From Morganella morganii (GTDB lineage: Bacteria; Pseudomonadota; Gammaproteobacteria; Enterobacterales; Enterobacteriaceae), in contig NZ_CP069157.1 in the NCBI RefSeq assembly GCF_019243775.1, positions 3,173,418-3,237,417 on the forward strand: a DNA stretch of 64,000 nucleotides, in the 5' to 3' direction. Below the pieces are notes generated by a model that ran no database searches, was not told where the DNA came from, and was given only the letters and a program-made list of their open reading frames with translations. Position numbers and translations under genes: made by a program. Positions within the stretch are counted from its first letter, which is position 1, and each line of letters opens with the position of its first letter. Shown piece after piece: positions 46,177-47,506 of the stretch.

Positions 46177-47506
46177 ATGAAAGAGCGCAGTATCGAACTG
46201 GTGGACGGATTCCGTCAGTCGGTTCCTTATATTAATGCTCACCATGGCAAAACATTTGTGGTGATGCTGGGCGGCGAAGCTATCGAGCATGAAAATTTTC
46301 CCGGTATTGTTAATGATATCGGCTTACTGCACAGCCTCGGCATCCGCCTGATTGTGGTGTACGGCGCTCGTCCGCAAATTGAAAAAAAATCTGCTGGCCC
46401 ATCAGTGCGAGCCGGTTTATCACAAAAATACCCGAGTGACAGATGCGCGCACTCTCGAGCTGGTCAAGCAGGCAGCAGGACAGTTACAGCTCGATATCAC
46501 CGCCCGTCTGTCGATGTGTCTGAGCAACACACCGCTGCAGGGCGCGCATATCAATGTGGTGAGCGGAAACTTTGTGATAGCCCAGCCGCTGGGGGTGGAT
46601 GACGGCATTGATTACTGCCACAGCGGGCGTATCCGCCGGATCGATGAAGATGCCATCAACCGCCAGCTCAATAACGGTGGTATCGTGCTGATTGGCCCGG
46701 TGGCGGTTTCTGTCACCGGTGAAAGCTTTAATCTGACCTCCGAGGAGATTGCCACGCAGATTGCCGTCAAACTGAAAGCAGAAAAGCTGATCGGTTTCTG
46801 CTCTGCGCAAGGTGTGGTGGCGGATGACGGCGGGATTATCTCCGAAATGCACCCGAATGATGCAGAGCACTATGTGCAGGCGCTGGAAGGCAGCGGCGAT
46901 TACTACTCCGGAACCGTCCGTTTCCTGCGCGGCGCGGTGAAAGCCTGCCGCCGGGGCGTGAAACGCAGCCATCTGCTCAGTTACCAGGAGGACGGTGCGC
47001 TTATCCAGGAACTCTTCTCCCGCGACGGTATCGGGACACAGATTGTGATGGAAAGCTCGGAACAGACACGCCGCGCCAATATCAATGATATCGGCGGGAT
47101 CCTCGAGCTTATCCGCCCGCTGGAACAACAGGGTATTCTGGTACGCCGCTCCCGCGAACAGCTGGAAATGGAAATCGACAAATTCACCATTATTGAACGC
47201 GATAACACCACGATTGCCTGTGCCGCCCTCTATCCGTATCCGGAAGAGAAAATCGGTGAAATGGCCTGCGTGGCGGTGCATCCCGATTACCGCAGCTCCG
47301 CACGGGGCGAGGAACTGCTGCACCGGGTCACACAGCAGGCAAAGCAGATCGGGCTGGAAAAGCTGTTTGTGCTCACCACCCGCAGCATTCACTGGTTTCA
47401 GGAGCGCGGCTTTGTCCCGGCAGAAATTGAAAACCTGCCGGTCAAAAAACAGGCGCTGTATAACTATCAGCGGCGCTCAAAAATCCTGATCCTCGGTTTT
47501 CAGTAA
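46177..47506 (+). pseudogene. argA: argA (N-acetylglutamate synthase), frameshifted at an 8-A run
   Basis: ArgA catalyses the first committed step of arginine synthesis, glutamate + acetyl-CoA to N-acetylglutamate. The ATG at 46177 follows GAGGGG and reads MKERSIELVDGFRQSVPYIN to YGARPQIE at residue 69. A run of eight A (46382-46389) then shifts the frame; translation would end at 46602 after 141 residues. The +1 frame continues NLLAHQCEPVYHKNTRVTDA through the amino-acid-kinase-like domain and the C-terminal GNAT domain (CVAVHPDYRSSARGEELLHR) to 47506. Removing one A gives 442 residues (E. coli 443). Outside the run every part is well conserved, so the lesion is recent, an error, or bypassed. 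Confidence 0.95.

Follow-up and report, generated by a model that had tools for sequence, protein, structure and literature searches.

A Split argA in a Morganella morganii Genome Record: One Extra A in an A8 Run That Is Most Likely a Homopolymer-Length Error

In the single-contig genome of Morganella morganii, we analyzed a 64-kb stretch of DNA (hereafter, the window) and found that argA, on the plus strand at 46177-47506, was split into two pieces at a run of eight A at 46382-46389. The eighth A most likely (probability of about 0.7) does not exist in the cell and reflects a homopolymer-length error made during sequencing or assembly. This reading was based on the A7 runs and open frames of congeners, an otherwise clean argA, A/T runs that differed from those of congeners only by being longer, two more split genes nearby, and one-base indels in rRNA. 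If it holds, the strain would carry A7 at this site and would produce a normal N-acetylglutamate synthase of 442 residues, regulated by ArgR. The preliminary description of this DNA had left three explanations in competition, namely a homopolymer error, a recent null allele, and slippage of RNA polymerase. Our tests favored the first, with some contrary results, and spoke against slippage, since the A8 run was not conserved and a deletion would be needed to restore the frame.

The argA Locus and Its Frame Break

The 5' piece of argA, read in the ATG frame on the plus strand, spanned 46177..46602 and consisted of 70 native ArgA codons followed by an out-of-frame tail, giving 141 codons in total. 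Counted from the ATG, codon 69 was GAA and codons 70 and 71 were both AAA, which confirmed that the frame breaks at residue 70-71 within the A8 run, as first described. The 3' piece (46391..47506, plus strand) comprised 371 codons and the natural stop, and it encoded the remainder of the amino-acid kinase domain together with the GNAT domain. We compared both pieces with the NCBIfam ArgA model NF003641. Residues 2-74 of the 5' piece corresponded to model positions 3-75, and the 3' piece resumed at model position 75 and stayed open to 47506; thus, the earlier claim that the shifted frame carries on ArgA to the natural stop was borne out. The 3' piece alone scored 602 bits against a model cut-off of 344, and the 5' piece supplied the missing N-terminal positions. 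As for membership in the ArgA family (PRK05279/TIGR01890), the amino-acid kinase and GNAT parts were present in order and the model cut-off was passed, but they did not lie in one continuous frame.

The rest of the gene was undamaged. Alignment with the congener G005 contained one non-triplet indel in total, and neither an internal stop in the 3' piece nor a second non-triplet indel in argA was detected. Relative to G001, G002, and G005, the private changes across both pieces were nine synonymous and zero nonsynonymous, and the 3' piece differed from that of G001 at one residue. The preliminary description, which had noted no other decay and a length of 442 residues after removal of one A, was right on both counts, the intact relatives also being 442 aa long (protein cluster P0121 and the ORFs of G001, G002, and G003). 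An old, decayed pseudogene was rejected on the grounds of the single non-triplet indel, the lack of any further stop, and the nine synonymous against zero nonsynonymous private changes. Judging from the undecayed remainder of the sequence, the cell either acquired the break very recently or does not carry it.

Upstream of the gene lay an ARG-box-like tandem operator (46125..46163, plus strand) made of two 18-mers at 46125-46142 and 46146-46163, separated by 3 bases. These 18-mers resemble the ARG-box consensus. In an alignment with five congeners, both were almost identical, and the ribosome-binding site differed by about one base; the preliminary description had judged the operator and the ribosome-binding site to look functional. 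The neighboring genes are presumably amiC and recD, a setting that we take to be like that of classical ArgA.

The Same Site in Related Genomes

To place the run among relatives, we compared its length in five congeners. The site read A7 in four of them (G001, G003, G004, and G005) and AAAAGAAC in G002, which means that G002 has no run there; the argA frame was open in all five. The comparison of run lengths had been suggested as a check on programmed slippage, for which an out-of-frame run should be conserved among relatives, and the outcome was the opposite, with an in-frame A7 in four of five and no run in the fifth. Across the wider family, argA had matches in 283 of 392 genomes at E <= 1e-50, and among the matches listed, all other argA frames were at least 444 codons long. 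The best intact ArgA cluster, P0121, comprised 147 members of 442 residues. By these alignments, the out-of-frame A8 is private to the present record among the sequences examined. According to the available part of PMC3711429, singleton frameshifts validated by BLAST are expected to stem from sequencing errors, not from indel mutations.

One further group of sequences appeared to be broken at the same site. Protein cluster P0003 (86 residues, 3 members, 19 contigs) was identical to argA of the window over residues 1-70 and then continued as if the run had been read as A6; the nucleotide run is here deduced from the protein sequence. No separate cluster of a short ArgA form was seen among the best 120 of 6872 protein matches to the 3' piece. 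A split argA in Morganella was not found reported in the open-license literature, which is no proof of absence.

Survey of A/T Run Lengths

To evaluate whether homopolymer length was biased in the record, A/T runs were compared with the corresponding stretches of three congeners (G001, G002, and G005), over 457 kb and later over 855 kb. Runs without matching 3-base flanks, or with disagreeing comparison genomes, were excluded. At runs with a consensus length of 7 in the 855 kb, the present genome exceeded the consensus by one base in 10 of 67 cases and fell short of it in none. The corresponding changes were 1/57 (longer) in G005, 4/60 (shorter) in G002, and 1/21 (shorter) in G001. In a three-genome version for runs of at least 7 (against G002 and G005), the present record was longer at 10 of 74 runs, compared with 1 of 137 in G002 and G005 pooled (p = 1.4e-4). 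These results indicated an excess of longer A/T runs relative to congeners, as expected of homopolymer errors. Of the changed runs of at least 7, all 10 were longer here and all 8 were shorter in G002 (p = 2.3e-5). Such a uniform direction favors a bias in length calling, since true slippage or mutation would be expected to go both ways.

The total number of changes told against the error reading. When both directions were counted, 10 of 74 runs had changed here and 8 of 72 in G002 (p = 0.80), with 1 of 65 in G005; against G002 and G005 pooled (9/137), the difference was likewise not significant (p = 0.13). An excess of run differences of either sign was thus not observed, nor was an excess of split genes (see below). 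As a separate observation, the A/T runs of the G002 record were shorter at 8 of 72 positions and longer at none; its run lengths may be biased in the opposite direction.

We also analyzed where the longer runs lay. Coding interiors were defined as positions more than 90 bases from the start and more than 60 bases from the end of an ORF, so that the run in the DUF423 gene described below counted as edge. Longer runs made up 2 of 20 in coding interiors and 8 of 47 elsewhere (p = 0.71, on small numbers). With no significant depletion in interiors, filtering by selection was not seen, within the limits of these small numbers. The distribution along the genome was uneven, which counts against the error reading: longer runs numbered 8 of 35 at 3.10-3.49 Mb and were absent among the 32 at 3.50-3.79 Mb (p = 0.005, for a split chosen post hoc). 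A patchily polished assembly would fit this pattern, which is a guess on our part.

Other Split Genes near argA

Two further conserved genes were broken in the same manner. A run at 38757..38764 was 8 long here and 7 long in G001, G002, and G005, and it broke a minus-strand DUF423 gene, whose flanking genes we take to be rlmM and gcvA. Its ATG frame was lost at about codon 17 and ran for 40 codons to the next stop, compared with 131 codons in congeners. The second, a pseudouridine synthase gene (PF00849, PseudoU_synth_2), lay at genome position 3,249,369, which is 11,952 bases past the end of the window. It stopped after 117 of 218 codons, 3' of a run that exceeded its counterpart in the three congeners by one base. 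Within 37 kb, three conserved genes (DUF423, argA, and the PseudoU_synth_2 gene) were therefore split by a run with one added base. In addition, a T8 run was found at 30175..30182, outside ORFs of at least 100 codons, where G001, G002, and G005 have T7.

The overall frequency of split genes was not unusual. Private frame losses beyond base 45 affected 2 of the 169 genes counted here (argA and DUF423), 2 of 148 in G001, 0 of 170 in G002, and 5 of 170 in G005, where some of the losses may be start-site differences; the count was confined to genes whose frame was kept in the other aligned genomes, which placed the pseudouridine synthase gene outside it. These counts fell within the range of the congeners and so weighed against the error reading.

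rRNA Copies as a Quality Test

To verify the base-level quality of the record independently of protein-coding genes, we compared rRNA copies from five operons, including those of L101, L109, and L111. The 5 LSU and 5 SSU copies of the present genome contained 39 indel events confined to one copy, compared with 10 in the 4 + 4 copies of G005, whose copies thus differ among themselves too. Over the final 1200 bases of 23S, 12 one-copy indels were observed here and none in G005, and E. coli agreed with the other copies at all 12. One-base indels were accordingly present in conserved stretches of rRNA, with the caveat that repeats such as the rRNA operons may be of lower quality than single-copy DNA, and argA does not lie in a repeat. 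So many private one-base indels are hard to square with working rRNA genes, and on this comparison of copies, the record holds base-level errors. L111 also contained a cobalamin riboswitch aptamer (RF00174) at 11107-11292 on the minus strand.

Alternative Explanations

The strongest competitor of the error reading is that the A8 is genuine and arose by a very recent replication-slippage mutation, so that the strain would be without ArgA and would be predicted to require arginine. We consider this unlikely, but it accounts for part of the data. The otherwise undecayed argA is what a young null allele would look like, the numbers of run-length changes and split genes lay within the congener range, the surplus of longer runs was regionally clustered, and P0003, with its A6-type frame, suggests breakage of argA at the same run in other sequences. 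On the other side, the run changes went in one direction only, and they occurred in a record with demonstrable one-base indels in rRNA.

A mutator strain was judged unlikely: mutS, mutL, mutH, and uvrD were open reading frames, which also tells against the null allele, and the branch was not long, with 2688 private substitutions here and 3327 in the nearest relative over 205,688 columns. The private Ts/Tv of 3.41 was the highest of the four genomes (others, 2.20-2.88), and we list it against the error reading.

The arginine pathway offered evidence on both sides of the null allele. The ORFs of argE, argC, argB, argG, and argH were open and ARG boxes were kept, which speaks against a loss of arginine synthesis. 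The genes argE and argH were assigned by models, and argC, argB, and argG are named on our assumption from their starts and gene order. In favor of the null allele, substitutes for ArgA were not evident. ArgJ was not found in the genome by a model search that was positive in 10 of 14 control genomes, and the ArgH of 459 aa is too short for what we take to be the form of the ArgH-ArgA fusion. The short-NAGS model NF005921 gave matches below its cut-off only, to argA itself and one other GNAT protein, a weak negative given that the model passed its cut-off in 0 of 14 controls. With this weak negative and 33 GNAT matches in the genome, a weak alternative acetylglutamate enzyme may still be present. 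An argA deletion turned an E. coli strain into an arginine auxotroph, according to the part of PMC7527732 available.

A related possibility is that argA is a contingency switch, in which an A7 run would change to A6 or A8 in individual strains and thereby reversibly toggle arginine synthesis in arginine-rich hosts. A phase-variable locus should show several run lengths among close strains; the site read A8 here and A7 in congeners, with an A6 type deduced from the P0003 protein. We regard a switch as quite improbable.

It is quite improbable that the A8 is real and that part of the transcripts regain the frame through slippage of RNA polymerase, a derepressed argA then making enough enzyme. 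Slippage of E. coli RNA polymerase on A/T runs of similar length is described in the available parts of PMC6260861 and PMC1088944, the latter also stating that for a large share of genomes, selection becomes evident at a run length of nine. In one E. coli transcript in the accessible text of PMC6260861, deletion was about as frequent overall as insertion (0.007% vs 0.0066%), and derepression through ArgR could amplify a small yield. The event needed here, however, is the loss of one A (or the gain of two). The same portion of PMC6260861 showed no rescue by deletion on the poly(A) runs examined with E. coli polymerase, and that of PMC5574713 recorded only three deletions during E. coli transcription that began in homopolymers, with no frame restored. 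Since no out-of-frame A8 is conserved and repair would require the direction that is rare on poly(A) in E. coli, rescue at the transcript level was disfavored. At the level of translation, E. coli ribosomes slide along repeated AAA, as indicated by the excerpted PMC4363877, in which no test of ribosomal frameshifting on a lone A8 was found.

Finally, translation of the 3' piece of a real A8 allele from an internal start, with its GNAT domain supplying some acetylglutamate, is extremely improbable. A frame of 384 codons is open from a TTG at 46352 and includes the region matched by the GNAT portion of the model. Such a product would lack the beginning of the kinase domain, however, and congeners with a continuous frame need no such start.

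Implications

If the eighth A is an error of the record, as we favor, the record should not serve to call recoding, pseudogenes, or arginine auxotrophy, and the splits in two further conserved genes near argA would probably be false as well. If the A8 is real, it would provide a simple amino-acid auxotrophy that can be tested; considered alongside the A6-type cluster, it would be a hint that argA has been switched off and on repeatedly.

Comparison with Known Systems

The case resembles classical N-acetylglutamate synthase, ArgA (PRK05279, TIGR01890), in that both pieces match the models in order and the intact relatives have 442 residues; it differs in that the frame is interrupted in the present record. 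A second comparison is with tssM of Citrobacter rodentium, in which, as described in the available part of PMC4256274, a poly(A) run also precedes a premature stop. That gene uses A11 and an insertion, whereas argA here has an A8 that would need a deletion, and its out-of-frame run is not conserved, a difference that counts further against slippage. A third likeness is to the assembly errors described in the part of PMC12007338 available, where one-base homopolymer indels likewise split conserved genes. The direction of change is unlike, and this counts against the error reading: the homopolymer-linked errors of nanopore assembly in that account are mainly deletions, with bases lost from homopolymers, whereas the differences in the present record are additions at A/T runs of at least 7.
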